DNA of 64,000 bases from Xestospongia muta. Its lineage: Eukaryota; Porifera; Demospongiae; Haplosclerida; Petrosiidae. The notes below the pieces were generated by a model. The model saw only the letters and a program-made list of their open reading frames with translations. It searched no databases and was not told the origin of the DNA. The stretch spans positions 2,552,038 through 2,616,037 of the forward strand of contig OY848923.1 of NCBI GenBank assembly GCA_963693285.1, written 5' to 3'. Position numbers and translations under genes: made by a program. Shown in pieces: positions 62 to 34,373 of this stretch. How positions within the stretch are numbered: the first letter of the stretch is position 1; every line of letters begins with the position of its first letter.

Positions 62-1111
62 ATGTTAAAAATCATCATCTTGGGTTTTGCCATTGGTCTA
101 GTTCATGTCAATGGTGACAGTCATACTGGAGGATGTACAGCTACTTATACAACTACATGTCCAATAACTCCTCCTACATATGGTTCTTGTAGTAATGACA
201 GCAATGCTGTTGAGAAAAAGTTAGTGCAACTCAATACAAAGATGAACCAGATTGAAGCAAAACTTGATCGTTTAATGGCACGTGCAAATATTACTGATCT
301 CTATCCTCCTTCATCTCTACTACACTCCTGTGAGGAGATCAAGATTAACTGGTCTGATAGTCCCTCTGACTATTATGTCATAGCTGATACTAAAGGACAT
401 CCTCGTCATGTCTACTGTCACATGGAATCACTGTGTAACTCTAGTGGAGGATGGATGAGGGTAGCCTACCTCAACATGTCTGACCCTACAGAGGAATGTC
501 CACCTGGATTTAGACTATATAATCAGAATGGAATAAAAGCATGTGGACGACCAGCATCATCACCAGGTGATAGCTGTCAATCAGTCAAGTTCCCCTCCTA
601 CTGTATCAGTTACTCTGAAGTATGTGGTCGAGTTATTGGATATCATTATGGACATCCTGATGCCATTGCTCCTTATCGTTCACAGAAAAATAACCTTAAT
701 GGAGCATATGTTGATGGTGTTAGTCTTACTCGTGGTAATCCTCGTAAACATATATGGACATTCATGGCTGCTCTACAAGAGAACAATTTCTTATCTAATG
801 GTATACACGAGTGTCCCTGTGCTCCTAACAGTCCATTGACTGTCCCATCCTTTATTGGTAATGATTACTTCTGTGAGTCAGCTTGTCCTGGACATTGGTA
901 ATGGAATAAATTCTATTCTGGAGATCCACTCTGGGATGGTAAACAGTGTGGACTGATAGAGAAAGCCTGTTGTCTAGCTCCTGGTATACCATGGTTCCAT
1001 AAGACACTTAACTCTCCCACTACTGACTATATAGAAATGAGAATATGTGGAGATGAAGCTGGCAGTTCAGACGACTCTCCAGTCAATCATTTTGAAATTT
1101 ATGTTAAATAA
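62..1111 (+). pseudogene. FReD-like secreted protein, one nonsense codon
   Basis: This copy would encode 349 residues, but codon 280 is TAA (899-901) where the intact copy at 3025 has CAA in the same 'PGHWQWN' motif. Downstream of the stop the frame stays open to TAA at 1109-1111. The first part shows a signal peptide (about residues 1-19), a Cys-rich segment, a stalk ending 'KLDRLMARANIT', then 'SCEEI', 'VYCHME' and 'GGWMRVAYLNMSD'. The 61 bp before the ATG nearly match the leader of the copy at 7121, while the 3' flank matches the copy at 3025, so the gene is a mosaic. The truncated product would lack the last 70 residues, including the 'DPLWDG' and 'EIYVK' parts. It is either a recent pseudogene or a segregating null allele. 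A likely poly(A) signal, AATAAA, lies at 1291-1296. Confidence 0.85.
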
Positions 1112-2458
1112 TTTAGAGATATTGAAGAGTGAAATAATACCAATAATAATTATTACATGTGATTGTTTAAATGTCTCTTTTAATTCAAATAAACCATTTG
1201 AACTAAAAGTTGAAGTCATTAGAGTACAGTGTGAAGTAGGAACATATAGCAGACAAAGACAACACACTATACCTTTAGTCCAAAATATTCAATAAAGGAG
1301 ATATGTGGGTAACTTTTTACTAGTCAAAGTCATTGTATGTACATGTTCATAGATTACATAGAAGTAATTAATTGTATGGGTACAAGTAGGAACGAAAGTG
1401 TCACAGAGATTATGGCTATTACGACTAATCATTTCAAAACAATGTACTTGTAAAATATGACATACCCAGTTATTACATGATTTTCATGTTTTTCACAGAA
1501 AGAGCTTATCTGCAAAATTAATATATTTTTGGTCAAGGACAAAAATTAAAGTGTAAAATTTGATTTATAGAAATGTACTTTCCATTCACAAAACTTGTAC
1601 TGTGTGATAATAACCAAGTGTACAGTAAGTGATGATTTATTTCTTAAAGTTAAATGTAACACTTAACACAAATATTATTATTATTATCATCATGTATCTG
1701 ATGTTACATGTTAAACACTAAACTAAAAAATGCTATAACATTTTAACAAGACTATAATTGAAAAAGTCATCGTACAATTGTTTTGGAAGACACTGGCTTC
1801 AAAGTAAAACATTAACTATAACTACAAAGATTGTATGATTAGCAGCAGTAGAAGACTAATAGCTATTGAATGCTAGATATATAGAAGAGCAAGTTAGTGA
1901 GAAGCTTCAAGCATTGTCTGTCATACTCATCATTACACAGTTAGGATATATGAAATTTATTGGTTGCTATATGCATTGACAGTTAAAGAATATTGTTTAA
2001 TTTCAGTCGTTGCTCTTGAAAATGAGTCACATGGAACAATATATTAAAATGATAAAAACAGACATAACATTATGTTATATATATATACAAGACATGTAGT
2101 CAAGAAACAATTAGAGGACCAATATATAGTCCAATAATATCAGTCTCCATTATTAAAACAATACTAGCTAATTTAATGTGTAAAGATAACTTTGTAGTAA
2201 CCTTTGAATCATTAGTATTTCTAATGAACATTTTAAAAACTTTTTGTGAAGACAACTTTGTTAGAAGCTACTGATATTTATACAAGGACAAGTTATCAGT
2301 GAACCTATAAATTGAACAAATGATCTTCCATAAACTTTCTCAAACCAATATAGATAACCTCATTATAATAACCAGCTAATTTTGTAAATTATACAAAAGA
2401 AAATAAAAGAATAGGACCTTTAGTTTTATTCTGTAAGAAAAACAGCTATCATCTAGTG
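1112..2458. other. Intergenic, 3' flank plus AT-rich spacer
   Basis: The first 200 bp are the 3' untranslated type shared with the copy at 3025. The remainder is AT-rich spacer without a convincing ORF. Around 2160-2450 it is homologous to the spacer at 5070-5340, which leads into the copy at 5358; this includes a 'taggacctttag' leader just before the fragment at 2459. Confidence 0.6.
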
Positions 2459-2605
2459 ATGAAAATGATGAATCTCTTTGTCTTGGGGCTTGTATTAGAT
2501 CTGGCTCAGACTGGAAGCAGTAGCAGTTGTAAAGCTACTTGTACATCTACATGTCCCTCTACCAGTTCTTCAATACAAAGTTGTAATGACAGTAAAGCCA
2601 AGTAA
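2459..2605 (+). pseudogene. 5' fragment of a FReD-like gene (signal peptide only)
   Basis: This 48-codon ORF is almost identical to the start of the gene at 5358: signal peptide 'MKMMNLFVLGLVLDLAQTG' and a Cys-rich segment. It breaks off after 'CNDSKAK' at a TAA. From about 2602 the DNA is instead the upstream spacer block found before other copies (near 9130 and 22620). The junction therefore looks like a recombination breakpoint that joined the start of one gene to the promoter spacer of another. If translated it would be a short secreted peptide, but no function is implied. Confidence 0.8.
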
Positions 2606-2835
2606 TTTTGGTTAACATTACAAACTAAGACAAATTATTTTCATACATAATTATATCTTAGTACTAGCATTGAAGAATTGACTATACATTTGTATAACAG
2701 AAAACCCTATTTCTAGTGACCTATTACATCCCTCAAGAGATAACACAACCACTAAAACAACATATCTCATGACCTCTTACTCTCTTTAGGAGTTACAATA
2801 ACCACAGTACATTGAGCTATTGTCACAAGGTCAAA
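2602..2835 (+). repeat. Upstream spacer repeat of the array (copy 1)
   Basis: A block that includes 'cctcaagagataacacaac' and 'tatctcatgacctcttac' recurs at about 9115-9345, 20325-20440 and 22620-22840. Each copy sits a few hundred bases or more upstream of a FReD-like gene. It has no ORF. It is either a passive part of the duplicated unit or an upstream control region. Confidence 0.7.
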
Positions 2836-2951
2836 CAGTCAGTAACCTTGATTACTAAATGAATGGGCTTCTACAAACTTTCTCAAACCTGATACCTCTT
2901 TCATAAAGAACTTCACAGTCACAAACTTGTTCGTGACTAAACATCTTAGTG

Positions 2952-2959
2952 TATATAAA
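2952..2959 (+). promoter_or_regulatory. TATA box of the gene at 3025
   Basis: TATATAAA lies 73 bp before the ATG. The other long-stalk genes at 20624 and 26793 have their TATA boxes 74 bp before the ATG, followed by the same leader containing 'cagaagcttcagttctct'. A TACAAACTTTC element lies further upstream at 2872-2882. Confidence 0.75.
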
Positions 2960-3024
2960 GACACTCATAAACAGAAGCTTCAGTTCTCTATCTAGTGAGC
3001 TAAAGAGCCTTTACAGTAATAGAA

Positions 3025-4284
3025 ATGTTAACTGTTCTTATCTTAAAATTTTTGGTCACTCTAGTTTATGCTAATACTGGTAGTAAGTTAGACAACTGTC
3101 CAACTACTACCTCACTACAACAGTCTATAGATAACCTCACTAACTTGGTCAATGACACATTGACCAAGTCTGCTCAGAGTTGTCTAGCTAATACTGATAG
3201 CAGTAGTAATGTTGCTATCTTAGTACAACTAACAATGATGCAACAACTATTTAACCACAACCAAATGAACATGAGAGGTTGCTGTCCAATACAAAACATC
3301 AATAACGATAGTAAGGCTATTACAGAACTAAGTGAAAAGCTAAGTACAAAGATCGAAAAAGCTTCAACTCGTATAGAAGAAAACGTAAAGAAAATGTTTG
3401 ATGCCAAGATAGACAAACTCACAGCTAAAGTAAATCGTTTGATGACATTGACTAATATTACTGAACCCACTGACTATCCTCCTTCTCCTCTCTTACACTC
3501 CTGTGAGGAGATCAAAACTAACTGGCCTGATAGTCCCTCTGACTATTACATCATAGCTGATACTAATGGACATTCTCGTCATGTCTACTGTCATATGGAA
3601 TCACTGTGTAACTCTGGAGGAGGATGGATGAGAATAGCTTACCTAAACATGTCTGACGCTACTGAGGAATGTCCACCTGGATTTAAACTATATAGCCAGA
3701 ATGGAATAAGAGCATGTGGACGACCAACATCGTTACCAATTAATAGTTGTCAATCAGTAAAGTTCTCCACCTACAGTGTCAGCTACTCTCAAGTATGTGG
3801 TCGAATTATTGGATATCAATATGTATCACCTGATGCCATTGCTCCTTATCGCTCACAGAAAAATAACCTCAATGGAGCATATGTTGATGGTGTTAGTCTT
3901 ACTCGTGGTAATCCTCGTAAACATATCTGGACATTTATGGCTGCTCTACAAGAGAACTATTTCCATGGCAATGGTCAACATGAGTGTCCTTGTGCTCCTA
4001 ACAGTCCTGTGACTGTTCCATCATTTATTGGTAATGACTACTTCTGTGAGTCAGGTTGTCCAGGACACTGGCAATGGAATACATTCTATCCTGGGGATCC
4101 ACTCTGGGATGGTAAACAGTGTGGACTGATAGAGAAGGCCTGTTGTCAAGCTCCTGGTCTACCATGGTTCCATAAGACACTTAACTCTCCCTCTACTGAC
4201 TATATAGAAATGAGAATATGTGGAGATGAAATTAGCAATTGGGAAGACTCTCCAGTCAATTATTTTGAAATTTATGTTAAGTAA
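3025..4284 (+). CDS. Secreted FReD-like protein, long-stalk type, 419 aa
   Basis: An intact intronless gene. Residues 1-17 form a signal peptide. Residues 18-150 are an extended stalk with paired Cys ('GCCP'), a Gln/Asn-rich stretch, and heptad-like helices around 'ELSEKLSTKIEKASTRIEEN' that could form a coiled coil. The conserved region follows: 'SCEEIKTNWPDSPSDYY', 'VYCHMESLC', 'GGGWMRIAYLNMSD', 'ECPPGF', then a C-terminal region with 'HIWTFMAALQ', 'CPCAPNS', 'DPLWDGKQCG' and final 'EIYVK'. N-glycosylation sequons (NIT, NMS) are visible. By analogy with fibrinogen-related lectins the protein would be an oligomeric extracellular binding protein; ligand and role are unknown. Long-stalk sisters lie at 20624 and 26793. 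Confidence 0.85.
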   Translation: MLTVLILKFLVTLVYANTGSKLDNCPTTTSLQQSIDNLTNLVNDTLTKSAQSCLANTDSSSNVAILVQLTMMQQLFNHNQMNMRGCCPIQNINNDSKAITELSEKLSTKIEKASTRIEENVKKMFDAKIDKLTAKVNRLMTLTNITEPTDYPPSPLLHSCEEIKTNWPDSPSDYYIIADTNGHSRHVYCHMESLCNSGGGWMRIAYLNMSDATEECPPGFKLYSQNGIRACGRPTSLPINSCQSVKFSTYSVSYSQVCGRIIGYQYVSPDAIAPYRSQKNNLNGAYVDGVSLTRGNPRKHIWTFMAALQENYFHGNGQHECPCAPNSPVTVPSFIGNDYFCESGCPGHWQWNTFYPGDPLWDGKQCGLIEKACCQAPGLPWFHKTLNSPSTDYIEMRICGDEISNWEDSPVNYFEIYVK

Positions 4285-5292: not shown

Positions 5293-5300
5293 TATAAAAA
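5293..5300 (+). promoter_or_regulatory. TATA box of the gene at 5358
   Basis: TATAAAAA lies 65 bp before the first ATG, followed by a 'taggacctttag' leader that is also present before the truncated copy at 2459. Confidence 0.65.
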
Positions 5301-5357: not shown

Positions 5358-6458
5358 ATGAAAATGATGAATCTCTTTGTCTTGGGGCTTGTATTAGATC
5401 TGGCTCAGACTGGAAGTAGTAGCAGTTGTACAGCTACATGTACATCTACATGTCCCTCTACCAGTTCTTCAATACAATATTGTAATGACAGGAAAGCTAT
5501 AGTAGAGCTGGATGAAAAGCTTAGTGAAAAGATTGACAACATAACTTCAATACTAGACAATAGAATGAATGAAAAGCAACTCAATACAAAGATGAACCAG
5601 ATTGAAGCAAAACTTGATCGTTTAATGGCACGTGCAAATATTACTGATCTCTATCCTCCTTCATCTCTCCTATACTCCTGTGAGGAGATCAACACTAATT
5701 GGCCTGATAGTCCCTCTGACTATTATGTCATAGCTGATAATAATGGACATCCTCGTCATGTCTATTGTCATATGAAATCGTTGTGTAACTCTGAAGAAGG
5801 ATGGATGAGGGTAGCTTATTTCAACATGTCTGACCCTACAGAGGAATGTCCACCTGGATTTAGACTATATAACCAGAGTGGAATAAGAGCATGTGGACGA
5901 CCAGTATCAGCACCAGCTAATAGCTGTCAATCAATCAAGTTTCCCTCCTACAGTATCAGTTACTCTCAAGTATGTGGTCAAGTTATTGGATATCAATATG
6001 CTGCACCTGATGCCATTGAACCTCATAGTGGAAGAAGTAAAAGCATTGATGGAGCATATGTTGATGGTGTTAGTCTTACTCGTGGTAGTCCTCGTAAACA
6101 TATCTGGACATTTATGGCTGCTATACAAGAGAACACCTTCCATGTCAATGGTCAACATGAGTGTCCTTGTGCTCCTAACAATACTGTGACTGTCCCATCC
6201 TTTATTGGTAGTGACTACTTCTGCGAGTCAGGTTGTCCTGGAAACTGGCAACATAACGTCTTCTATACTGATTCACTCTGGGATGGTAAACAGTGTGGAC
6301 TGATAGAGAAAGCCTGTTGTTTAGCTCCTGGTATACCATGGTTTAATAAGACATTGAGCTATCCCACTACAGACTTTATAGAAATGAGAATGTGTGGAGA
6401 TCAACCAGCAACTGATGAAGATTCTCCTGTTGGTTATTATGAGATTTACGTGAAGTAG
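5358..6458 (+). CDS. Secreted FReD-like protein, third stalk type, 366 aa
   Basis: An intact intronless gene. The first ATG is at 5358; an upstream in-frame GTG is not used as a start in animals. The signal peptide 'MKMMNLFVLGLVLDLAQTG' is followed by Ser- and Cys-rich residues and a stalk ('ELDEKLSEKIDNITSILDNR') found in no other open copy. At 'QLNTKMNQIEAKLDRLMARA' the sequence becomes the short-stalk type of the copies at 62 and 7121, so the gene looks like a fusion of two 5' modules. The conserved C-terminal region is complete. Its loop 'EPHSGRSKSID' resembles that of the gene at 10271, and its C-terminal loop 'CGDQPATDEDSP' resembles that at 15546. The 3' flank (AATAAA near 6496) resembles that of 33001. 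Predicted extracellular and glycosylated. Confidence 0.85.
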   Translation: MKMMNLFVLGLVLDLAQTGSSSSCTATCTSTCPSTSSSIQYCNDRKAIVELDEKLSEKIDNITSILDNRMNEKQLNTKMNQIEAKLDRLMARANITDLYPPSSLLYSCEEINTNWPDSPSDYYVIADNNGHPRHVYCHMKSLCNSEEGWMRVAYFNMSDPTEECPPGFRLYNQSGIRACGRPVSAPANSCQSIKFPSYSISYSQVCGQVIGYQYAAPDAIEPHSGRSKSIDGAYVDGVSLTRGSPRKHIWTFMAAIQENTFHVNGQHECPCAPNNTVTVPSFIGSDYFCESGCPGNWQHNVFYTDSLWDGKQCGLIEKACCLAPGIPWFNKTLSYPTTDFIEMRMCGDQPATDEDSPVGYYEIYVK

Positions 6459-7120: not shown

Positions 7121-8161
7121 ATGCTAAAAGTCATTATCTTAGGTCTTGCTATTAGCTTAGCTCAAGTGGATAGCGACAGTCATACTGGAAGATGTACAGC
7201 TACTTATACAACTACATGTCCAATAACTCCTCCTACACATGGTTCTTGTAGTAATGACAGTAAGGATGTTGAGAAAAAGTTAGTGCAACTCAATACAAAG
7301 ATGAACCAGATTGAAGCAAAACTTGATCGTTTAATGGCACGTGCAAATATTACTGATCTCTATCCTCCTTCTTCTCTCCTATACTCCTGTGAGGAGATCA
7401 TTACTAACTGGCCTGATAGTCCCTCTGATTATTACATCATAGCTGATACTAATGGACATCCTCGTCATGTCTACTGTCATATGGAATCACTGTGTAACTC
7501 TAGTGGAGGATGGATGAGGGTAGCTTACCTTAACATGTCTGACCCCAAAGAGGTATGTCCACCTGGATTTAGACTGTATGAGGAAAATGGAGTAAGAGCA
7601 TGTGGACGACCAGTATCATCGCCAGCTGGTTACTGTCAATCAGTCAAGTTCCCCTCCTACAGTATCAGTTACTCTCAAGTATGTGGTCGAGTAATTGGAT
7701 ATCAATATGGAACACCTAATGCCATTGAGCCTTATGGCGGATACAATATCAATGCAGCATATGTTGATGGCATTAGCATTACCTGTGGTAATCCTCGTAA
7801 ACATATCTGGACATTTATGGCTGCTCTACAATAGAATTATTTCTATTCTAATGGTATATATGAGTGTCCCTGTGCTCCTAACAGTCCTGTGACTGTCCCA
7901 TCCTTTATTGGTAATTGCTACTTCTGTGAGTCAGGTTGTCCAGGACATTTTCAGGTTAATACATTATATACTGATCCACTCTGGGACGGTAAACAGTGTG
8001 GATTGATAGAAAAGCCCTGTTGTCTAGCTCCCAGTCTACCATGGTTCCATAAGACACTTAACTCCCCAACTACTGACTATATAGAAATGAGGGTATGTGG
8101 AGATGAAGGAGTAGGAAATGAAGACTCTCCAGTTGCTTACTATGAGATTTATGTTAAGTGA
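7121..8161 (+). pseudogene. FReD-like secreted protein, one nonsense codon
   Basis: A 346-residue reading frame interrupted once, by TAG at 7832-7834, where intact copies read GAG in 'ALQEN'. The frame stays open afterwards to the normal 'YYEIYVK' end at 8161. The signal peptide, Cys-rich segment and short stalk are those of the copy at 62. Its first variable loop is short ('EPYGGYNIN'), close to the loop of the gene at 24013. A truncated product would stop inside the C-terminal region, losing about 109 residues. The downstream flank ('gatgagcacattgataatt') is the type found after 10271 and 24013. It is a young pseudogene or null allele. Confidence 0.85.
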
Positions 8162-9467: not shown

Positions 9468-9783
9468 TTTTTGACTACTGTAGTAGAAAACGTTTACATT
9501 ACTGAGTGGATCTGTTATTTGTCCATGTACTTCCAACAGTGCTCTCTATTTTGTTTTTATTTGTAAAGATTATTTCTGCAAGTTTGGAAATATACTATCT
9601 GATCATTTTGGGATGGTAAACAGTATGGTCTGATAATAAAGATGGACTGTTGTCTAGTTTCAGGTCTACCATGGTTCTATAAGACACTTGACTAATCTCC
9701 CACTACTGATTATATAGAAATGAGGATATGTGGAAATGAAGACTCTTCAATTGCTTACTATGAACTTTATGTGAGATGGTGAC
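9468..9783 (+). pseudogene. Degraded 3' relic of a FReD-like gene
   Basis: Text resembling 'CPCAPNS' and then 'DPLWDGKQCG', 'LPWF', 'TTDYIEMRICG' and the 'YYE.YV' end can be read, but indels break the frame and about 60 residues between the blocks are missing. The early part ('gtagtagaaaac') resembles the relic at 19715-20150, so both may descend from the same old copy. Confidence 0.7.
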
Positions 9784-10270: not shown

Positions 10271-11308
10271 ATGTCTGCCATGTACAAAATACTACTCCTT
10301 TTCATATTGGGTCTTTGTATAGAATTACTTCATGGCAATGGTGACAGTCATACTGGAGGATGTACAGCTTCTTGTACATCTACATGTCCTATTACCACTT
10401 CTAAAGAAGGCTGTAATGACTGTAAGGGTATTGAACATAAACTCCAACAACTTGACACTAAACTTGATCGTTTAATGGCACATGCAAATATTACTGATCT
10501 CTATCCTCCTTCTGCTCTCCTACACTCCTGTGAGGAGATCAACACTAATTGGCCTGATAGTCCCTCTGACTATTACATTATAGCTGATACTAATGGACAT
10601 CCTCATCATGTCTACTGTCATATGGAATCATTGTGTAACTCTAGTGGAGGATGGATGAGGGTAGCCTACCTCAACATGTCTGACCCTACAGAGGAATGTC
10701 CACCTGGATTTAGACTGTATAATGAGAGTGGAATAAGAGCATGTGGACGACCAGCATCAGCACCAGTTAATAGCTGTCAATCAGTCAAGTTCCCCTCCTA
10801 CAGTATCAGTTACTCTCAAGTATGTGGTCAAGTTATTGGATATCAATATGGATCACCTGATGGTATTCATCGTCATAGTGGAAGAAGTAAAAGCATTAAT
10901 GGAGCATATGTCGATGGTGTTAGTCTCACTCGTGGTAATCCTCGTCAACATATATGGACATTTATAGCTGGTCTACAAGAGAACTATTTCTCTCAAAATG
11001 GACATCATGAGTGTCCCTGTGCTCCTAACAGTCCTGAGACTGTCCCATCTTTTATCGGTAATGACTACTTTTGTGAGTCAGGTTCTCCTGGACACTGGCA
11101 ACATAACATCTTCTACACTGATCCACTCTGGGATGGTAAACAGTGTGGACTGATAGAGAAACCCTGTTGTTTAGTTCCTGGTCTACCATGGTTTAATAAG
11201 GCACTTAACTCTACCACTACTGACTATATAGAAATGAGAATATGTGGAGATGAAGTTGGAGGAAATGAAGACTCTCCAGTTGCTTACTATGAGATTTATG
11301 TTAAGTGA
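10271..11308 (+). CDS. Secreted FReD-like protein, short-stalk type, 345 aa
   Basis: Intact and intronless. The first ATG gives 'MSAMYKILLL'; sister genes lack it and start at the equivalent of 10280, giving 342 residues. The signal peptide ends near 'ELLHGNG'. A Cys-rich stretch ('GGCTASCTSTCP') and a short helical stalk ('IEHKLQQLDTKLDRLMAHA') precede the conserved region. One otherwise invariant Cys is replaced: 'CESGSPGHW' instead of 'CESGCPG', so one disulfide may be lost. Variable loop 1 reads 'IHRHSGRSKSIN'. The gene lies in the left copy of a segmental duplication whose partner is 24013. Expected to be secreted and to oligomerise through the N-terminal Cys and stalk. Confidence 0.85.
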   Translation: MSAMYKILLLFILGLCIELLHGNGDSHTGGCTASCTSTCPITTSKEGCNDCKGIEHKLQQLDTKLDRLMAHANITDLYPPSALLHSCEEINTNWPDSPSDYYIIADTNGHPHHVYCHMESLCNSSGGWMRVAYLNMSDPTEECPPGFRLYNESGIRACGRPASAPVNSCQSVKFPSYSISYSQVCGQVIGYQYGSPDGIHRHSGRSKSINGAYVDGVSLTRGNPRQHIWTFIAGLQENYFSQNGHHECPCAPNSPETVPSFIGNDYFCESGSPGHWQHNIFYTDPLWDGKQCGLIEKPCCLVPGLPWFNKALNSTTTDYIEMRICGDEVGGNEDSPVAYYEIYVK

Positions 11309-11984: not shown

Positions 11985-12600
11985 GTTCTCCTGGAATAAC
12001 AAGATTCAAAGTCAATCGTTTGATGACACTGACTAATATTACAAGTGGAAAAAGATGTAAAAAGAGTAGATACCAGGTGGAAAAAAGTAAGTTTGACTAT
12101 TACATCATAGCTGATACTGATGGACATTCTTGTCATGTTAAATAAAATATAAGTTATTCTCAAGTATGTGGTTGAGTTACTGGATATCAAATATACACAT
12201 ACAGATGCTAATTATCCTCATTCACAGAACAATAACCTCAATGGAGCATATGTTGATGGTATTATAGTATAACTCATGGTAATCCTCATAAACATGCCTG
12301 GACATTTACCAGTGTTCTACAAGAAAACCTTTTTTGCTGTGATGGAGGTTAGCATGAGTGTCTATGTACTTCTAACTGTCATGTGACTATTCCATCTTTA
12401 TTGGTAATGACTACTTCTATGAATCAGATCGTCTTAAACATAATGTTTTATACACGGATTGACTCTGAGATCGTAAACAATATGGACCAATAAAGAAGAC
12501 CTTTTGTCTAGCTATCAGGTCTATCATGACTCCATAAAACACTTAACTCTTTCACTAAAAACTATAAAGAAATGAGAGTGTGGAAGGTGGCATCAGCAAT
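11985..12600 (+). pseudogene. Degraded long-stalk FReD-like relic
   Basis: Stalk text readable as 'VNRLMTLTNIT', then pieces of 'DYYIIADT.GHS', 'YSQVCG', 'NNLNGAYVDG', 'CPC' and 'SFIGNDYF' follow in order, with large internal deletions and many frame breaks. A matching relic occurs at 25735-26335 in the sister duplication. Confidence 0.75.
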
Positions 12601-12609
12601 TTGGAAGAC

Positions 12610-13618
12610 TCAGAACTCGGTAAAAAGGTTAGTACAAAGATTGAGACCACATCAATTCAGTTAGAGACCAAAGTTAATACTAAAATTCATAATATCTCAC
12701 AACTTACTTAGTTAACTTAAAAAATCTGTTTGATGCCAAGATAGACAAACTCACAGCTAAAGTAAATCGTTTGATAACACTGACTAACACTACTGAACCA
12801 ACTGACTATCCTCCTTCTTCTCTCTTACACTCCTGTGAGGAGATCAACACTAATTGGCCTGATAGTCCCTCTGACTATTACATCATAGCTGATACTAATG
12901 GACATTCTCGTCATGTCTACTGTCATATGGAATCACTGTGTAACTCTGGAGGAGGATGGATGAGGGTAGCCTACCTTAACATGTCTGACCCTACAGAAGA
13001 ATGCCCACCTGGATTTAGACTATATAATCAGGAAGGAATAAAAGCATGTGGATGACCAGCATCATCACCAGCTGGTTATTGTCAATCAGTCAAGTTCCCC
13101 TCCTACAGTATCAGTTATTCTCAAGTATGTGGTCAAGTTATTGGATATCAATATGGACATCCTGATGCTACTCAACCTCATAGCAAAAGAAGTAAAAGCA
13201 TCAATGGAACATAATATGTTGATGGCGTTAGCATTACTCATGGTAATCCTTGTAAACATGTATGGACATTTATGGCTGCTCTATAAGAGAACTATTTCTA
13301 TCAAAATGGTCATTACAAGTGTCCCTGTGCTCCTAACAGTTCTGCGACTGTCCCATCTTTTATTGGTAATGACTATTTCTGTGAGTCAGGTTGTCCAGGA
13401 CACTGGCAGACTCGTGTCTTCTATACTAATCCATGTGATCCACTCTGGGATGGTAAACAGTGTGGACTGATAGAGAAGGCCTGTTGTCTAGCTCCTGGTC
13501 TACCATGGTTCCATAAGACACTTAACTCCCCAACTAATGACTATATAGAAATGAGAGTGATGATCCAGGGGGATATGAAGATTCTCCAGTTGCTTACTAC
13601 GAGCTCTATGTTAAGTAA
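12610..13618 (+). pseudogene. FReD-like long-stalk pseudogene, several lesions
   Basis: This begins with stalk text like 'ELGKKVSTKIE' and 'FDAKIDKLTAKVNRLIT', lacks a signal peptide, and then runs through the whole conserved region. Lesions include CGA to TGA at 13053-13055, a small insertion near 13212 inside 'NG.YVDG', CAA to TAA in 'ALQEN' near 13286, and a deletion after 'YIEMR' near 13558. It is too damaged to encode a product, but long stretches keep near-identity with intact copies, so it can still donate sequence by gene conversion. Confidence 0.85.
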
Positions 13619-19714: not shown

Positions 19715-20150
19715 TAGCCTCTCTAAACATGTCTGACCTCACAGAGGAATGTCCACCTGGATTTAGACTATATTACCAGAAAGGAATAAGAGCATGTGGA
19801 AGACCAGCATCATCATCAGCTGGTTACTGTCAATCAGTCAAGCTCTCTTCCTAATATATCTGTTACTCTCAAGTATGTGAAATAGTTATTGAGTATCAAT
19901 ATGAAACACAAGACACCATTCAGCTTGGACATTCACGAAAGAATAATTAAAACAGAGCATTACATTGATGGGAACACACCATTGCCCTTGTCAACATATC
20001 TGGACATTTATAACTGTTGTAGTAGAAAACCTTTACATTAAATCTGCATCTGATATTTGTCCATGTACTTCCAATAGTATCACAAACTCAATTACTCACA
20101 ATCTACTATTCCACAAGTATAAGGTTACCACAAACCCGTCAACTTATATA
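19715..20150 (+). pseudogene. Degraded FReD-like relic
   Basis: Readable pieces are 'LNMSD.TEECPPGFRLY', 'GIRACGRPASS', 'GYCQSVKLSS', then a stop, 'YSQVCE', and later 'HIWTFI' and a 'CPCTSNS' block. Frame breaks and deletions separate them. The 'agctctcttcctaa' lesion is shared with the relic at 35005, so the two come from one already broken ancestor. Confidence 0.75.
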
Positions 20151-20623: not shown

Positions 20624-21877
20624 ATGCTATCTGTCCTTACTTTGAGTTTTGTTGTCACTCTAGTTTATGCTAATACTGGTAGTAAGTTAGACAACTGTCC
20701 AACTACTACCTCACTACAACAATCTATAGATAACCTCACTAACTTGGTCAATGACACATTGACCAAGTCTGCTCAGAGTTGTCTAGCTAATACTGATAGC
20801 AGTAGTAATGTTGCTATCTTAGTACAATTAACAATGATGCAACAACTATTCAACTACAACCAAATGAACATGAAAGGTTGCTGTCCTGTACAGAACAGCA
20901 ATAACGATAGTAAGGCTATTGTAGAACTAAGTGAAAAGCTAAGTACAAAGATTGAAAAGACTTCAACTCGTATAGAAGAAAACGTAAAGAAAATGTTTGA
21001 TGCCAAGATAGACAAACTCACAGCTAAAGTAAATCATTTGATGACACTAACTAATATTACTGAACCCACTGACTATCCTCCTTCTCCTCTCCTACACTCC
21101 TGTCAAGAGATCAAGACTAACTGGCCTGATAGTCCTTCTGACTATTACATCATAGCTGATACTAATGGACATCCTCGTCATGTCTACTGTCACATGGAAT
21201 CACTGTGTAACTCTAGTGGAGGATGGATGAGGGTAGCCTACCTCAACATGTCTGACCCTACAGAGGAATGTCCACCTGGATTTAGACTATATAGCCAGAA
21301 TGGAATAAGAGCATGTGGACGACCAACATCACTAGGTGGTTACTGTCAATCAGTCAAGTTCCCTTCCTACAGTATTAGCTACTCTCAAGTATGTGGTCAA
21401 GTTATTGGATATCAATATGGACATGTTGATGGTATTGATCCAAGACGTTCACAAAAAAATAACCTCAATGGAGCATATGTTGATGGAGTTAGTATAACTC
21501 GTGGTAATCCTCGACAACATATCTGGACATTTATAGCTGCTCTACAAGAAAATGCTTTTACTGATGGAGGTTGGCATGAGTGTCCCTGTGCTCCTAACAG
21601 CCCTGTGACTACTCCATCTTTTACCGGTAATGACTACTTTTGTGAGTCAGGTTGTCCTGGAAACTATGAACATAATGTCTTCTACACTGATCCACTCTGG
21701 GATGGTAAACAGTGTGGACTGATAGAGAAACCCTGTTGTCTAGCTCCTGGTCTACCATGGTTTAATAAGACACTTAGCTCTCCCACTACTGACTATATAG
21801 AAATGAGAGTATGTGGAGATGAAGGAGCAGGAAATGAAGATTCTCCAGTTGCTTACTATGAGATTTATGTTAAGTGA
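20624..21877 (+). CDS. Secreted FReD-like protein, long-stalk type, 417 aa
   Basis: Intact and intronless. The signal peptide 'MLSVLTLSFVVTLVYANTG' and the 130-residue stalk are nearly identical to those of 3025, including 'GCCPVQN' and the helical 'STKIEKTSTRIEEN' part. In the conserved region the second Glu of 'SCEEI' is Gln-substituted ('SCQEI'). Loop 1 reads 'GIDPRRSQKNNLN', loop 2 'AFTDGGWHECPC', loop 3 'NYEHNVFY'. The C-terminal loop 'GDEGAGNEDSP' matches short-stalk genes rather than 3025 ('GDEISNWEDSP'), which again indicates exchange of 3' modules. Predicted secreted, multimeric and glycosylated. Confidence 0.85.
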   Translation: MLSVLTLSFVVTLVYANTGSKLDNCPTTTSLQQSIDNLTNLVNDTLTKSAQSCLANTDSSSNVAILVQLTMMQQLFNYNQMNMKGCCPVQNSNNDSKAIVELSEKLSTKIEKTSTRIEENVKKMFDAKIDKLTAKVNHLMTLTNITEPTDYPPSPLLHSCQEIKTNWPDSPSDYYIIADTNGHPRHVYCHMESLCNSSGGWMRVAYLNMSDPTEECPPGFRLYSQNGIRACGRPTSLGGYCQSVKFPSYSISYSQVCGQVIGYQYGHVDGIDPRRSQKNNLNGAYVDGVSITRGNPRQHIWTFIAALQENAFTDGGWHECPCAPNSPVTTPSFTGNDYFCESGCPGNYEHNVFYTDPLWDGKQCGLIEKPCCLAPGLPWFNKTLSSPTTDYIEMRVCGDEGAGNEDSPVAYYEIYVK

Positions 21878-24012: not shown

Positions 24013-25035
24013 ATGTACAAAATACTACTCCTTTTCATATTGGGTCTTTGTATAGAATTACTTCATGGCAATGGTGACAGTCATACTGGAGGATGTACAG
24101 CTTCTTGTACAGCTACATGTCCTATTACCACTTCTAAAGAAGGCTGTAATGACTGTAAGGGTATTGAACATAAACTCCAACAACTTGAAGCTAAACTTGA
24201 TCATTTAATGGCACGTGCAAATATTACTGATGTCTATCCTCCTTCTTCTTTACTACACTCCTGTGAGGAGATCAAGACTAACTGGCCTGATAGTCCCTCT
24301 GACTATTACATTATAGCTGATACTAATAGACATCCTCGTCATGTCTACTGTCATATGGAATCACTGTGTAACTCTAGTGGAGGATGGATGAGGGTAGCTT
24401 ATCTCAACATGTCTGACCCTACAGAGGAATGTCCATCTGGATTTAGACTATATAACCAGAATGGAATAAGAGCATGTGGACGACCAGCATCATCACCAGC
24501 TGGTTACTGTCAATCAGTCAAGTTCCCCTCCTACAGTATGAGCTACTCTCAAGTATGTGGTCAAGTTATTGGATATCAATATGGATCACCTGATGCCATT
24601 GACCATTATGGAGGATATGACATCAATGGAGCATATGTTGATGGTGTTAGTCTCACTTTTGGTAATCCTCGTCAACATATCTGGACATTTATAGCTGCTT
24701 TACAAGAGAATTATTTCCATTATGATGGTCGTCATGAGTGTCCCTGTGCTCCTAACAGTACTGTGACTGTTCCATCTTTTATTGATAGTGACTACTTTTG
24801 TGAGTCAGGTTGCCCTGGAGACTGGAAACTTAATGTCTTCTGCAATGATCCACTCTGGGATGGCCAACAATGTGGACTGATAGAGAAGGCCTGTTGTCAA
24901 GCTCCTGATCTACCATGGTTTAATAAGACACTTAACTCTACCACTACTGACAACATAGAGATGAGGGTATGTGGAGATGAAGCAACAGGAAATGAAGACT
25001 CTCCAGTTGCTTACTATGAGATTTATGTTAAGTGA
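24013..25035 (+). CDS. Secreted FReD-like protein, short-stalk type, 340 aa
   Basis: Intact and intronless. The upstream in-frame codon at 24004 is GTG, so the first ATG is 24013 ('MYKILLLFILGLC'). The signal peptide, Cys segment and stalk are almost the same as in 10271, its partner in the segmental duplication. The two proteins differ mainly in the loops: loop 1 'IDHYGGYDIN' (shorter), loop 2 'YFHYDGRHECPC', loop 3 'DWKLNVFCNDPLW' with an extra Cys. The first module has 'TNRHPRH' instead of 'TNGHPRH', and 'ECPSGF' instead of 'ECPPGF'. Predicted secreted oligomer; ligand unknown. Confidence 0.85.
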   Translation: MYKILLLFILGLCIELLHGNGDSHTGGCTASCTATCPITTSKEGCNDCKGIEHKLQQLEAKLDHLMARANITDVYPPSSLLHSCEEIKTNWPDSPSDYYIIADTNRHPRHVYCHMESLCNSSGGWMRVAYLNMSDPTEECPSGFRLYNQNGIRACGRPASSPAGYCQSVKFPSYSMSYSQVCGQVIGYQYGSPDAIDHYGGYDINGAYVDGVSLTFGNPRQHIWTFIAALQENYFHYDGRHECPCAPNSTVTVPSFIDSDYFCESGCPGDWKLNVFCNDPLWDGQQCGLIEKACCQAPDLPWFNKTLNSTTTDNIEMRVCGDEATGNEDSPVAYYEIYVK

Positions 25036-25734: not shown

Positions 25735-26335
25735 GTTAATTGTTTGATGACACTGACTAATGTTACAAGTGGAAAAAGATGGAAAAAGAGGTGGCAATCG
25801 AAAAAAAAGTAAGTTTGACTATTACATCATAGCTGATACAAATGGACATTCTTGTTATGTCAAGTAAAATATAAGTTATTCTCAAGTATGTGGTTGAGTT
25901 ACTGGATATCAATATGAACATACAGATGCTAATTATCCTCATTCACAGAAAAAAAAAACTCAATAGAGCATATGTTAATGGTATTATATAACTCGTGGTA
26001 ATCCTCATAAACATGCCCAGACATTTATCATTGTTCTACAAGAAAACTTTTTTTGCTGTGAAGGAGGTTAGTATGAGTGCCTATGTAGTCCTAACTGTCA
26101 TGTGACTATTCCATCTTTATTGGTAATAACTACTTCTGTGAATCAGGTTGTCTTAAACATAATGTTTTGTACATGGTTAACTCTGGGATGGTAAACAATA
26201 TGGACTGATAAAGAAGACCTTTTGTCTAGCTTCAGGTCTATCATGGCTCCATAAAACACTTAACTCTTCCACTAGAGACTATAAAGAAACGAGAGTGTGG
26301 AAGATGATATCAGCAATTTGGAAGACTTCACATGA
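25735..26335 (+). pseudogene. Degraded long-stalk FReD-like relic
   Basis: Partner of the relic at 11985. Stalk text 'LMTLTNVT', then 'DYYIIADTNGHS', 'YSQVCG', 'YVNG' and 'SLIGN' pieces can be read with many indels. The 'tcaggttgtcttaaacata' stretch shows the same deletion in both relics. Confidence 0.75.
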
Positions 26336-26792: not shown

Positions 26793-28043
26793 ATGCTAAC
26801 AGTCCTTGTCTCCAGCTTTATTGTCACTCTAGTTTATGCTAATACTGGTAGTAAGTTAGACAACTGTCCAACTACTACCTCACTACAACAGTCTATAGCT
26901 AATCTCACTAACCTGGTCAATGACGCATTGTCCAAGTCTGCTCAGAGTTGTCTAGCTAATGCTGATAGTAGTAGTAATGTTGCTATCTTAGTACAATTAA
27001 CAATGATGCAACAACTATTTAACGTCAACCAAATGAATATGAGAGGTTGCTGTCCTGTACAGAACAGTAATAACGATAGTAAGGCTATTGTAGAACTCGG
27101 TGAAAAGCTAAGTACAAAAATCGAAAAGGCTTCAACACGAATAGAAGAAAACTTGAAGAAAATATTTGATGCCAAAATAGACAAACTCACAGCTAAAGTA
27201 AATCATTTGATGACATTGACTAATATTACTGAACCCACTGACTATCCTCCTTCTCCTCTCCTTAACTCCTGCGAGGAGATCAAAACTAACTGGCCTGATA
27301 GTCCCTCTGACTATTACATCATAGCTGATACTAATGGACATTCTCGTCATGTCTACTGTCATATGGAAACACTGTGTAACTCTGGAGGAGAATGGATGAG
27401 GGTAGCCTACCTTAATATGTTCGACCTTACAGAGGAATGTCCACCTGGATTTAAACTATATAACAAGAGTGGAATAAGAGCATGTGGACGACCAACATCA
27501 CTAGGTGGTTACTGTCAATCAGTCAAGTTCCCCTCCTACAGTATCAGCTACTCTCAAGTTTGTGGTCGAGTTATTGGATATCAATATGGATCACCTGATG
27601 CTATCCATCCTCATTCACAGACAAATAACCTCAATGGAGTATATGTTGATGGTGTTAGTCTTACTCATGGTAATCCTCGTCAACATATCTGGACATTTAT
27701 GGCTGCTCTACAACAGAATTCTTTTGCTAATGACGGTTTGAATGAGTGTCCCTGTGCTCCTAACAGTCTTGTGACTGTTCCATCTTTTATCAGTAATGAT
27801 TATTTCTGTGAGTCAGGCTGTCCTGGACAATTTCAAACAAATGTCTTCTACACTGATCCACTCTGGGATGGCCAACAGTGTGGACTAATAGAGAAGGCCT
27901 GTTGTCAAGATCCTGGTCTACCATGGTTCCATAAGACACTTGACTCTCCCACTACTGACTATCTAGAAATGAGAGTGTGTGGAGATGAAGTTAGCAGTTC
28001 GGAAGACTCTCCAGTCGGTTATTATGAAATTTATGTTAAATAA
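26793..28043 (+). CDS. Secreted FReD-like protein, long-stalk type, 416 aa
   Basis: Intact and intronless. Signal peptide 'MLTVLVSSFIVTLVYANTG' and the long stalk as in 3025 and 20624, with a few changes ('ANLTNLVNDALSKSAQ', 'ELGEKLSTKIEK'). 'LLNSCEEI' replaces 'LLHSCEEI', and 'LNMFDLTEEC' replaces 'LNMSDPTEEC', which removes one conserved N-glycosylation sequon. Loop 1 'IHPHSQTNNLN', loop 2 'SFANDGLNECPC', loop 3 'QFQTNVFY'; 'CCQDPGLPW' replaces 'CCQAPGLPW'. The 3' flank resembles that after 19230. Predicted secreted and multimeric. Confidence 0.85.
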   Translation: MLTVLVSSFIVTLVYANTGSKLDNCPTTTSLQQSIANLTNLVNDALSKSAQSCLANADSSSNVAILVQLTMMQQLFNVNQMNMRGCCPVQNSNNDSKAIVELGEKLSTKIEKASTRIEENLKKIFDAKIDKLTAKVNHLMTLTNITEPTDYPPSPLLNSCEEIKTNWPDSPSDYYIIADTNGHSRHVYCHMETLCNSGGEWMRVAYLNMFDLTEECPPGFKLYNKSGIRACGRPTSLGGYCQSVKFPSYSISYSQVCGRVIGYQYGSPDAIHPHSQTNNLNGVYVDGVSLTHGNPRQHIWTFMAALQQNSFANDGLNECPCAPNSLVTVPSFISNDYFCESGCPGQFQTNVFYTDPLWDGQQCGLIEKACCQDPGLPWFHKTLDSPTTDYLEMRVCGDEVSSSEDSPVGYYEIYVK

Positions 28044-29486: not shown

Positions 29487-29604
29487 ATGATGATGGTCGC
29501 TATCTTTGGTCTTGCCATATTGCCTTAGTTCCTGTCAACAATTAAGCTTGCACAGTAGCTATTAAATGATATACATGATGTAGTGTTATCTAAACTGAGA
29601 AAAA
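29430..29604 (+). repeat. Tandem duplication of a promoter-leader segment
   Basis: 'attaagcttgcacagtagct' occurs at 29430-29449 and again at 29539-29558, each time followed by a leader and an ATG (29487 and 29604). The first ATG opens only a broken signal-peptide sequence ('gtcttgccatattgcctta'). Confidence 0.7.
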
Positions 29605-29900
29605 TGCTGCCTGTCATTATCTTAGGTCTTGCCATTGCCTTAGTTAATGTCAATGGTGACAAACATACTGGAGGATGTACAGCTACTTATACAACTACAT
29701 GTCCTATTAATCCTCCAATACCTACTTCTTGTAGTTGTAACAGTTTAGTTATTGAAAAAAGATTCAAACAACTTGATACAAAGATGAACCAGATTGAAGC
29801 AAAACTTGATCATTTAATGGCACATGTAAATATTACTGAGGAGATCAAGACTAACTGGCCTGATAGTCTGACTATTACATCATAGCTGATACTAATGGAC
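29604..29900 (+). pseudogene. FReD-like 5' fragment with deletions
   Basis: Good start ('MLPVIILGLAIALVNVNG'), Cys segment ('CTATYTTTCP') and short stalk. Then 36 bp are missing between 'NIT' and 'EEI' (in frame, losing the conserved Cys of 'SCEEI'), and a 4-bp deletion in 'DSPSDYY' shifts the frame to a stop at 29883-29885. After about 29900 the sequence changes to the promoter spacer of the next gene. The gene is therefore a truncated remnant made by the same kind of junction as at 2602. Confidence 0.8.
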
Positions 29901-30230
29901 ATACATTAGTGTAAACAGAAAAAGTCAAGTATTAAAGTATTACTTTGTACCTTAGAAAAACAAAAACTATTGAGCCAAGCCCCAAGTGATTAACCTTGAA
30001 ATATACATGAGAGTCCCTTTACAAACGTTTCATGTATACTGAAACCTGTTACCTCTCACCAGTATAGCAGTAGTCAACAAGGTTGTGACCCTATCTGTGA
30101 AAACATCATATTATCTAAACTTTCCCAAACCTAATACCTCCTTTCAAAAAGGAACTTTTGGTACCAAACAACATGAAAGTCCCTTTACAAACTTTCCCAG
30201 ACTTAATACCTCCCTAACAAGAACTCAGCT

Positions 30231-30238
30231 CATAAAAA
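30231..30238 (+). promoter_or_regulatory. TATA-like box of the gene at 30297
   Basis: CATAAAAA lies 66 bp before the ATG, the spacing of the short-stalk class, with 'caaaacataagactttag' after it and 'tacaaactttcccagac' at 30186-30202. Confidence 0.65.
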
Positions 30239-30296
30239 GAGATTTTCAAAACATAAGACTTTAGTTGATAATCTTTTGACTTAAATAGTATCTACC

Positions 30297-31337
30297 ATGT
30301 ACAAAATACTAATCTTGATATTGGGTCTTTGTATAGAATTACTTCATGGCAACGGTGACAGTCATACTGGAGGATGTACAGCTACTTGTACATCTACATG
30401 TCCAATAACTCCTCCTACATATGGTTCTTGTAGTAATGACAGTATAGCTATTGAAAAAAGATTCAAGCAACTCAATAAAAAAATGAGCCAGATTGAAGCC
30501 AAGCTTGATCGTTTAATAGCACATGCGAATATTACTGATCTCTATCCTCCTTCTTCTCTCCTCCACTCCTGTGAAGAGATCAACACTAACTGGCCTGATA
30601 GTCCCTCTGACTATTACATCATAGCTGATACTAAAGGACATCCTCGTCATGTCTACTGTCATATGGAATCACTGTGTAACTCTGGAGGAGGATGGATGAG
30701 GGTAGCCTACCTCAACATGTCTGACCCTACAGAGGAATGTCCACCTGGATTTAGACTATATAATCAGAATGGAATAAGAGCATGTGGACGACCAGCATCA
30801 TCACCAGCTGATTATTGTCAATCAATCAAGTTTTGCACATATGGTATCAGCTATTCTCAAGTATGTGGTCAACTTATTGGATATCAATATGGACATACGG
30901 ACTCTCTTTATCCTGGGCGTAATATTAATCAAGCTTATGTTGATGGTGTTAGTCTTACCCGTGGTAATCCTCGTAAACATATCTGGACATTTATGGCTGC
31001 TCTACAAGAGAACTATTTCTATAAGAATGGTATAAGTGAATGTCCCTGTGCTCCTAACAGTCCTGTGACTGTACCATCTTTTATTGGTAATGACTACTTC
31101 TGTGAGTCAGGTTGTCCAGGAGATTATGAAAGTAACGTCTTCTATACTGATCCACTCTGGGATGGTAAACAGTGTGGACTGATAGAGAAAGCCTGTTGTC
31201 TAGCTCCTGGGCTACCATGGTTTAATAAGACACTTAGCTCTCCCACTACTGACTACATAGAAATGAGAATATGTGGAGATGAAATAGGGACACCTGAAGA
31301 CTCTCCAGTAGCCTACTATGAAATCTATGTTAAGTGA
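30297..31337 (+). CDS. Secreted FReD-like protein, short-stalk type, 346 aa
   Basis: Intact and intronless. The promoter and signal peptide ('MYKILILILGLCIELLHG') are those of 10271/24013, but the Cys segment and stalk ('PITPPTYGSCSNDS', 'IEKRFKQLNKKMSQIEAKL') are of the kind seen at 62 and 15546, so the gene joins two 5' modules. It has the shortest loop 1 of the open copies ('SLYPGRNIN'). Loop 2 is 'YFYKNGISECPC', loop 3 'DYESNVFY', and the C-terminal loop 'GDEIGTPEDSP'. 'KFCTYGISY' replaces 'KFPSYSISY', adding a Cys. The 3' flank resembles that after 21877. Predicted secreted. Confidence 0.85.
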   Translation: MYKILILILGLCIELLHGNGDSHTGGCTATCTSTCPITPPTYGSCSNDSIAIEKRFKQLNKKMSQIEAKLDRLIAHANITDLYPPSSLLHSCEEINTNWPDSPSDYYIIADTKGHPRHVYCHMESLCNSGGGWMRVAYLNMSDPTEECPPGFRLYNQNGIRACGRPASSPADYCQSIKFCTYGISYSQVCGQLIGYQYGHTDSLYPGRNINQAYVDGVSLTRGNPRKHIWTFMAALQENYFYKNGISECPCAPNSPVTVPSFIGNDYFCESGCPGDYESNVFYTDPLWDGKQCGLIEKACCLAPGLPWFNKTLSSPTTDYIEMRICGDEIGTPEDSPVAYYEIYVK

Positions 31338-32934: not shown

Positions 32935-32942
32935 TCGTTCAA
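32935..32942 (+). promoter_or_regulatory. TATA box of the gene at 33001
   Basis: TATAAAAG lies 66 bp before the ATG. Confidence 0.7.
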
Positions 32943-33000
32943 AATATAACATTTTACTTGAGTGGTTTTTTATAATAGTCTGAGCTATAGAGTGTCTGCC

Positions 33001-34038
33001 ATGTACAAAATGTTACTCCTCTTCATATTGGGTTTTTGTATAGAATTACTTCATGGCAATGGTGACAGTCATACTGGAGGATGTACAGCTACTTGTACAT
33101 CTACATGTCCTAATAATCCTCTAACATCTACTTCTTGTAGTAATGACAGTTTAGTTATCGAAAAAAGACTTGAGCAACTCAACGTAAAAATAAGGGAGAT
33201 TGAAGCCAAACTCGATCATTTAATGGCACATGCAAATATTACTGATCTCTATCCTCCTTCTCCTCTCCTACACTCCTGTGAGGAGATCAACACTAACTGG
33301 CCTGACAGTTCCTCTGACTATTACATCATAGCTGATACTAATGGACATCCTCGTCATGTCTACTGTCATATGGAATCACTGTGTAACTCTGGAGGAGGAT
33401 GGATGAGGGTAGCCTACTTCAACATGTCTGACCCTACAGAGGAATGTCCACCTGGATTTAGACTATATAACCAGAGTGGAATAAGATCATGTGGACGACC
33501 AGCATCAACACCAGCTGGTTATTGTCAATCAGTCAAGTTCCACTCCTACAACATTACTTATTCTCAAGTATGTGGTCGAATTACTGGATATCAATGTGGA
33601 TCACTTGACAATATTTATTCATGTTGTCTACATAACAAAAACATCAATCAAGCATATGTTGATGGTGTTAGTATAACTCGTGGTAATCCTCGTAATCATA
33701 TCTGGACATTTATGACTTGTCTACAAAAAAATTACTTCCAAAAAGGTGGGCAATGTGTGTGTCCCTGTGCTCCTAACAGTCCTGTGACTGTCCCATCCTT
33801 TATCGGGAATGACTACTTCTGCGAGTCAGGTTGTCCTGGAAACTGGCAATATAACCTCTTCTGTACTAATCCACTCTGGGATGGTAAACAGTGTGGACTG
33901 ATAGAGAAGGCCTGTTGTCTAGCTCCTGGTCTACCATGGTTCCATAAGACACTTAACACTTCCACTACTGACTATCTTGAAATTAGATTATGTGCTCCTT
34001 GGTTATCAGTTGGTTATTATGAGATTTATGTGAAGTAG
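33001..34038 (+). CDS. Secreted FReD-like protein, divergent Cys-rich loops, 345 aa
   Basis: Intact and intronless. The start is ATG 33001 ('MYKMLLLFILGFC'); the longer frame upstream has no ATG in the leader shared with its sisters. This is the most divergent open copy. Loop 1 contains two adjacent Cys ('NIYSCCLHNKNIN') after 'GYQCGS'. Loop 2 reads 'YFQKGGQCVCPC'. 'MTCLQKN' replaces 'MAALQEN', and 'LFCTNPLW' replaces 'VFYTDPLW'. The usual 'CGDE...EDSP' acidic loop near the end is replaced by 'CAPWLSVG'. The added Cys suggest extra disulfides in the variable face. The 3' flank resembles that after 6458. Predicted secreted; possibly a new binding specificity. Confidence 0.85.
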   Translation: MYKMLLLFILGFCIELLHGNGDSHTGGCTATCTSTCPNNPLTSTSCSNDSLVIEKRLEQLNVKIREIEAKLDHLMAHANITDLYPPSPLLHSCEEINTNWPDSSSDYYIIADTNGHPRHVYCHMESLCNSGGGWMRVAYFNMSDPTEECPPGFRLYNQSGIRSCGRPASTPAGYCQSVKFHSYNITYSQVCGRITGYQCGSLDNIYSCCLHNKNINQAYVDGVSITRGNPRNHIWTFMTCLQKNYFQKGGQCVCPCAPNSPVTVPSFIGNDYFCESGCPGNWQYNLFCTNPLWDGKQCGLIEKACCLAPGLPWFHKTLNTSTTDYLEIRLCAPWLSVGYYEIYVK

Positions 34039-34221
34039 TCAAGATTGAATACACTGATATATTAACTACTGACAGGCTAAAAACTTTGCATATGTGTTGA
34101 TTTATTTTGGTATTTTTTAACATTACTGCTAATGTTTTACAGCCATGTTGTAATGAGTTTAAGAAAAAAAAATTAAATTTCACAATATAATTATTCCAAA
34201 TATATCATCTTTAAATCTAGA

Positions 34222-34373
34222 TTTATGTGAAGTAGTCAAGATTGAAGACAATAATGTGTTAATTACAGATAAGCAAAATTTTTGCATACATGTTGATTAA
34301 TTACTGAATTTGTTGTAACATTGCTGCTATAAAGACACACAAGTTGCTTATTATGAGCTCTATGTTAAATAAT
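34222..34373 (+). pseudogene. 3'-end relics of FReD-like genes
   Basis: Two C-terminal scraps: 'tttatgtgaagtagtcaaga' (end codons and 3' flank as at 34030), and 'gttgcttattatgagctcta', which reads VAYYELYVK and a stop at about 34342-34373. Nothing upstream of either survives. Confidence 0.65.

Follow-up and report, generated by a model that had tools for sequence, protein, structure and literature searches.

Intelectins (X-type lectins) recognise bacterial glycans, as stated in passages of PMC6321704 and PMC12013895, and their genes number up to 9-22 in teleosts and tunicates in the account given in the former. The placozoan Trichoplax H2 has 31 intelectin-like genes in clusters of 2-9; in the parts of PMC6321704 that describe them, the placozoan proteins carry a FReD in their N-terminal portion only, conserve 10 cysteines in most members and are without coiled coils. 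Their sites of expression are mucocytes and secretory epithelial cells, according to the relevant passages of PMC12013895. Genes of the sponge Dysidea avara that encode a Fibrinogen_C domain respond to microbial patterns with altered expression, which rises in some genes and falls in others, as sections of PMC6208332 report. The subject of the present analysis is a family of stalked, secreted-looking proteins encoded in tandem in the demosponge Xestospongia muta. The window (the whole 64,000-nucleotide stretch analysed, positions 2,552,038-2,616,037 of contig 7) is the right end of a ~80-kb array, and holds, between positions 62 and 34,038, 12 copies that begin with an ATG and share one C-terminus; every one of them lies on the + strand and keeps to a single frame. 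Most change in the cysteine-rich head of these proteins is confined to four loops. The window is, with a probability of roughly 0.5, part of a sponge germline repertoire of secreted, stalked recognition proteins.

The four inter-strand loops are, in the reference copy used for the models, V1 (residues 199-213; window positions 30891..30935, + strand), V2 (residues 236-248; 31002..31040, +), V3 (residues 274-284; 31116..31148, +) and V4 (residues 327-333; 31275..31295, +). They were drawn on 24 aligned copies of contig 7 (three broken ones among the 27 near-full copies, g2538, g2545 and w12729, were left out, and stops in four of the others were masked); arrays on contigs 2 and 11 test the boundaries. 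Mean column entropy is 1.28 bits in the loops and 0.37 in the scaffold of the contig-7 copies, 1.24 versus 0.48 in 19 contig-2 copies (20 of 70 places were fetched, the interrupted L051 was left out, and L041-L046, several of them nearly identical, were read only from an internal methionine), and 1.48 versus 0.67 in 20 contig-11 copies (fetched from 38 places). Column entropies correlate between arrays (Spearman 0.42, 0.51 and 0.55). The same loops vary in another genus: six Amphimedon queenslandica proteins (of 7, P0162 with its head before its stalk being left out) differ pairwise by means of 0.39, 0.72, 0.50 and 0.27 in V1 to V4, versus 0.098 in the scaffold. V1 and V2 each come in 24 distinct versions among the 24 contig-7 copies, and in DNA V3 comes in 23 and V4 in 22. 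Loop length and framing residues are kept nonetheless, V2 being 13 amino acids long in 24/24. The N-terminus and stalk diverge too, with nonsynonymous divergence (dN) of 0.39 and 0.33. An earlier, sequence-only reading of this DNA had placed the changes in a few loops and in the stalk, and both parts of that claim are borne out. In the structural model V1 comes before strand 217-222 and V2 after strand 227-234, a short, mostly conserved turn joining the two strands; V1 and V2 thus lie together at one end of this hairpin in the model, which is silent on V3 and V4.

The proteins consist of a signal-like start (judged by eye), a cysteine-rich segment, a helix with heptads and a head of ~260 amino acids. 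AlphaFold2 models the stalk helix of the reference copy at residues 49-76 (30441..30524, + strand), where hydrophobic heptad spacing is present, as assessed without a chance control. Fourteen head cysteines occur in 24/24 contig-7 copies and a fifteenth in 22/24. Proteins built in this way would be secreted, disulfide-bonded and oligomeric. The secreted, stalked architecture proposed earlier (signal-like start, cysteine-rich N-terminus, helical stalk) thus agrees with sequence and model, secretion itself and the oligomer being its conditional parts. Sequence and model also divide the head into an N-terminal fibrinogen/intelectin-like piece and a beta-sandwich, and the likeness to fibrinogen and intelectin is limited to the first ~45-85 head residues. 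There a YCD..GGGW motif (residues 91-136 of the reference copy; 30567..30704, + strand) scores 29.8 bits with NF040941 (E 4.5e-7, just below the cut-off of 30), and the same part is matched by intelectin-1: structure 4wmq aligns with the N-terminal ~85 head residues at E 5.4e-5 for a single sequence (the copy at 20624) and 2.2e-6 for the family profile. Intelectin lectins are the nearest solved relatives by sequence. The family profile also matches the fibrinogen beta chain (E 2.4e-4), partly via the stalk.

The description of the proteins as FReD-like accordingly holds for the N-terminal part of the head and fails, by sequence, for the head as a whole. Pfam Fibrinogen_C (PF00147) reaches 12.5 bits in two of three window copies scanned, under its gathering cut-off of 22 bits, and is unlisted in the third; at E<=0.01 it is listed for 0/96 family members. 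A whole FReD head is not supported by sequence. Nor is the identity of a molluscan FREP, since Pfam lists no immunoglobulin superfamily (IgSF) domain in any of three family proteins that were scanned and none across the 96 members, or that of a ficolin: no collagen repeat was seen by eye in the translations, and the stalk is a predicted helix with heptads. The C-terminal half of the head gives no sequence match to vertebrate intelectins, and Foldseek template-modelling (TM) scores against these are 0.20-0.26. Surveys that use the Fibrinogen_C domain of Pfam would be expected to overlook a family in which 0/96 members list it. Some annotation pipeline does call the domain fibrinogen-like, since the Amphimedon entries LOC109582604, LOC109582605, LOC109583425 and LOC109584387 are named Fibrinogen C-terminal domain-containing or uncharacterized.

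Selection on the loops was assessed pairwise and with site models. The pooled proportions of nonsynonymous and synonymous differences (pN/pS) are 0.316/0.474 in the loops versus 0.071/0.222 in the scaffold, and the ratio of nonsynonymous to synonymous divergence (dN/dS) is 0.55 versus 0.28; pooled loop boundaries in this analysis differ by about one residue from the per-array entropy boundaries. The mean loop ratio stays below 1 because synonymous divergence (dS) is also higher in the loops. The ratio for a single loop exceeds 1 in two cases, at 1.37 for V4 on contig 7 and 1.17 for V2 on contig 2. A site model with a class of loop codons at dN/dS >1 is favoured on contig 7 (twice the log-likelihood difference, 2dlnL, 29.0) and on contig 2 (14.1), in fits that use one tree per array, a kind of tree that recombination distorts. 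These results are suggestive of positive selection on the loops in two of three arrays, so that the dN/dS comparison which the sequence-only reading had proposed comes out divided, with a site class above 1 in those two arrays and a pairwise loop mean below it. Along the head, pS is ~0.05-0.17 in windows starting at residues 97-127; at the extreme C-terminus it is ~0.6, with a low dN. Constancy in the first part of the head therefore looks largely like a product of homogenisation, and the C-terminal tail looks as if it were kept by purifying selection; the scaffold owes its near-constancy in part to homogenisation, and not to constraint alone.

Copies have also recombined. In the 66 pairs of window copies the flanks are mostly unalignable (of 800 bp, a median of 0 bp aligns upstream and 12 bp downstream), with 200 bp or more aligning upstream in 9 pairs and downstream in 5. 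The pairwise homoplasy index (PHI) at 100-bp windows was matched in 0/1000 permutations, both over the whole head and over the scaffold alone, and at 200-bp windows in 18/1000 over the scaffold alone. These results indicate recombination among copies at short range. A 240-bp shared tract over V3 and V4 joins two neighbours left of the window; shared tracts exceed the permutation threshold in 3/276 pairs, and likeness barely depends on the distance between copies (r 0.00-0.23 by segment). The raised dS of the loops, the unalignable flanks and the PHI results together imply that gene conversion probably homogenises the scaffold. The origin by duplication and conversion claimed earlier is thus supported by PHI and flanks as regards duplication and recombination, with conversion as the probable cause.

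The array belongs to a large family. The genome (158 Mb, 28 contigs) was examined in three protein searches with copies from contigs 7, 2 and 11, in which 117 of 867, 95 of 847 and 123 of 865 candidates were scored. At least 145 distinct C-terminal ends were found: contig 7 has 28 of them, contig 2 has 70 and contig 11 has 38, the other 9 lying elsewhere. A match, intact or not, was counted only if it extended to the query's C-terminal end, and the total is a lower bound given the share of candidates scored. Canonical Fibrinogen_C domains give at least 151 matches in the same genome (150 of 292 candidates scored), many on contigs 9, 15 and 2, and these genes are a different family from the stalked array proteins. 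On contig 9 (4448831-4459439, - strand) five Fibrinogen_C matches of equal score follow one another at a spacing of 2515-2516 bp, which reflects either tandem amplification of very recent date or a repeat in the assembly. Within the stalked family, two pairs of copies with equal scores lie 7,239 bp apart on contig 11 (5163711-5173700), which suggests recent duplication of a 7.2-kb unit, and two copies of equal score on contig 2 (9837917 and 9878252), 40 kb apart, are probably a recent segmental duplication.

Close relatives on database contigs bear on whether the loops serve to mark individuals. P0015 differs from copy g2547 at 2/51 loop and 10/218 scaffold positions, P0026 from copy 3025 at 0/51 and 2/218, and P0029 from g2505 at 2/49 and 15/218. 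P0024 against copy 3025 and P0031 against g2511 are moderately loop-concentrated (7/51 loop and 12/218 scaffold differences each), and P0010, P0016 and P0017 have scaffolds alike and loops unrelated (26/51, 28/53 and 31/51). The pairs with unrelated loops fit conversion and turnover of the repertoire. Pooled over eight pairs chosen on non-loop similarity, the loop-to-scaffold ratio is 3.6, the same as among paralogs. If the proteins acted in allorecognition or cell-cell recognition, their loops would serve as labels of individuals or of cell types and would bind partners among the sponge's own proteins. A diverse set of at least 145 secreted-looking proteins would suit the task, as would the database copies that combine alike scaffolds with unrelated loops; sponges do tell self from nonself with remarkable specificity (PMC5450542, in the part concerned). 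High allelic polymorphism would nevertheless predict the reverse of the P0015, P0026 and P0029 pairs, whose nearly identical loops mean that the loops are not the most polymorphic part between alleles. That weighs against allorecognition, and makes it a decidedly improbable account of the family. A weaker point on the same side is that the main text of an Amphimedon grafting study, in which the genes may be unnamed, nowhere uses the words fibrinogen, lectin or FReD.

The repertoire reading would work as follows. Each protein would be exported and held in an oligomer by its cysteine-rich segment and heptad helix, and would display a cysteine-rich head composed of the N-terminal fibrinogen/intelectin-like piece and the beta-sandwich. 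The four inter-strand loops, different in nearly every copy, are taken as the binding surface, so that every copy would have a glycan or surface target of its own, most probably one carried by microbes. New copies would arise by tandem duplication, gene conversion would keep much of the scaffold uniform and reshuffle segments, and stops and fragmentation would remove copies. Microbial surfaces seem a likelier target than allorecognition, because the nearest relatives with known activity are intelectins, lectins for bacterial glycans, and because placozoan proteins of like style are expressed in epithelial and mucus cells. The response of the Dysidea avara Fibrinogen_C-domain genes to microbial patterns is in line with this. 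On another account, these are proteins of extracellular matrix, mucus or particle capture, with loops that tune adhesion to food particles or matrix partners and without any immune role. In its favour, placozoan intelectins occur in mucocytes and secretory epithelial cells (PMC12013895, in the passages cited above), and secreted coiled-coil proteins with cysteine-rich necks suit mucus or matrix. A structural role, though, needs no four hypervariable loops on a scaffold that is constant across arrays and in another genus, and this account is unlikely.

Several results weigh against the repertoire reading or the processes assigned to it. Loop dN/dS is below 1 in 10/12 combinations of loop and array (0.31-0.75), contig 11 gives no significant result with the site model (2dlnL 0.5), and PHI at 200-bp windows is not significant over the whole head (182/1000). 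When compared with simulation on a single tree, only 9/55 pairs of segments are clearly too weakly linked, and 0/6 of the loop-loop pairs. The closest allele-like pairs (P0015, P0026 and P0029) show no concentration of differences in the loops, and a Ca/glycan site cannot be mapped on the head, because the intelectin match spans only its N-terminal part. The recurrence of loop-focused diversity in the other arrays and in Amphimedon favours a recognition repertoire, as had been proposed from the sequence; its function we infer, and the same is true of secretion, oligomer, disulfides, binding by the loops and target.

Low ratios with raised dS, together with a stop in 3/12 of the full-length window copies, are what would be seen if the loops were simply unconstrained, duplicates drifting while conversion homogenises the remainder and loop diversity serves no function. 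Against drift of this kind, the loops keep their length and framing residues (V2 in every contig-7 copy aligned), the same loops are variable in another genus, and for contigs 7 and 2, if not for 11, a class above 1 is preferred by the site models; conversion alone, moreover, would homogenise the loops as well. Functionless loops are for these reasons rather improbable, and the repertoire of recognition proteins is the reading preferred here. It bears on how sponges recognise microbes and each other, a question on which the literature, in the parts consulted, deals mainly with NLRs, SRCR proteins, canonical fibrinogen genes and aggregation factors. The family is a concrete candidate for that role, large (at least 145 places), suitably variable, and with fixed loop boundaries for cloning, swapping and assay; its pattern is relevant, too, to the question of how diversity of a recognition surface can persist on a scaffold that is kept uniform.

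The claim of a tandem array of at least twelve full-length copies on one strand stands as regards number, strand and frame. Full length applies in the sense that 12 copies reach the shared C-terminus, only 9/12 being open throughout. The open copies, all on the + strand, are copy 2 (3025..4284, 419 amino acids, long-stalk type), copy 3 (5358..6458, 366), copy 5 (10271..11308, 345), copy 7 (15546..16583, 345), copy 9 (20624..21877, 417, long-stalk type), copy 10 (24013..25035, 340), copy 11 (26793..28043, 416, long-stalk type), copy 12 (30297..31337, 346; the reference copy) and copy 13 (33001..34038, 345). One in-frame stop interrupts each of copy 1 (62..1111, +; TAA 899-901), copy 4 (7121..8161, +; TAG 7832-7834) and copy 8 (18205..19230, +; TGA 18862-18864). 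The thirteenth, copy 6 (12714..13640, +), is broken, with three in-frame stops, no start found and its C-terminal end lost. Five further places, likewise on the + strand, hold a C-terminal fragment (9606..9776), degenerate fragments (12008..12580, 19714..20111 and 25868..26297) and an N-terminal fragment (29595..29902). The limits of 62..34373 once given for the array are too narrow: on contig 7 it extends a further ~46 kb to the left of the window, as far as about 2,505,900 or beyond, and comprises 27 near-full copies in ~80 kb, broken ones counted, in a tally whose coverage excludes 5,477 bases of that span. TATAAA occurs within 150 bp upstream of 9/12 window copies (1.7 expected by resampling), and in 9/12 an AATAAA follows the stop codon within 150 bp (4.4 expected); the copies thus look like ordinary genes with short leaders. 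The claim that they are intronless applies to the coding part alone, which was the part covered, as distinct from the 5'-untranslated region.

To the right of the array, the window contains (GA)n/(CT)n tracts of ~100 units each (42845-43047 and 50153-50359) and a 47-bp tandem repeat of 15.8 copies with 98% matches (58769-59505). A proline-rich open frame of 517 amino acids (47415-48968) has no Pfam match at E<=1 and no NCBIfam match at E<=0.01. A frame of 365 amino acids (60074-61171) with many hydrophobic segments, judged by eye to encode a multi-pass membrane protein, has no Pfam match above its cut-off and no NCBIfam match. Elsewhere in the genome, contig 11 carries a cluster of papain-family exons (4506853-4521119); five exons fetched from it and one at 2459280 keep the cysteine at the expected active site, and 3/6 have YAF in place of WAF or WSF.

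A literature search on sponge and Amphimedon fibrinogen-related proteins, intelectins, allorecognition and hypervariable proteins returned no description of the family or its loops among the matches listed, most subscription papers lying outside its scope. The six Amphimedon proteins used are 47-51% identical to a contig-2 copy over 99-100% of its length, with the same architecture and the same variable loops; they are uncharacterised, and the comparison comprises six sequences. Vertebrate intelectins (4wmq, 6usc, 5zc0) align with the N-terminal ~85 head residues, give no sequence match in the C-terminal half and the Foldseek TM scores of 0.20-0.26 stated above, and have no repertoire of comparable size. 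The placozoan intelectin-like proteins, the nearest that have been described, are like the array proteins in being secreted, in their clustered genes and conserved cysteines, in that only the N-terminal portion reads as FReD, and in that the rest is alike within the family and not like vertebrate intelectins (PMC6321704, in its relevant passages). As far as descriptions allow comparison, they are unlike them in number, 31 genes versus at least 145 places, and in the heptad stalk found here; hypervariable loops are not mentioned in those passages, versus four in the sponge proteins. The intelectins and the placozoan and Dysidea genes are in sum neighbours of the array family and not the family itself. 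Ficolins and FREPs share a layout of stalk plus head. Like other whole FReD proteins they are secreted, whereas the array family is without a listed Fibrinogen_C domain and without the IgSF domains of FREPs. The sea urchin SpTransformer (185/333) genes, in the accounts consulted, are likewise a large and highly diverse germline family in an invertebrate; the proteins are unrelated, and their diversity lies in element patterns and not in loops of a cysteine-rich head. It may tentatively be proposed that this is an undescribed demosponge system of well over 100 secreted oligomeric proteins, with an unusual head and four loops that act like complementarity-determining regions. Germline duplication, together with conversion that spares the loops, would have diversified it, and its expansion would have taken place separately in more than one lineage of sponges. 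A germline recognition repertoire in an invertebrate is a known kind of system; what would be new is a head that is not a standard FReD.

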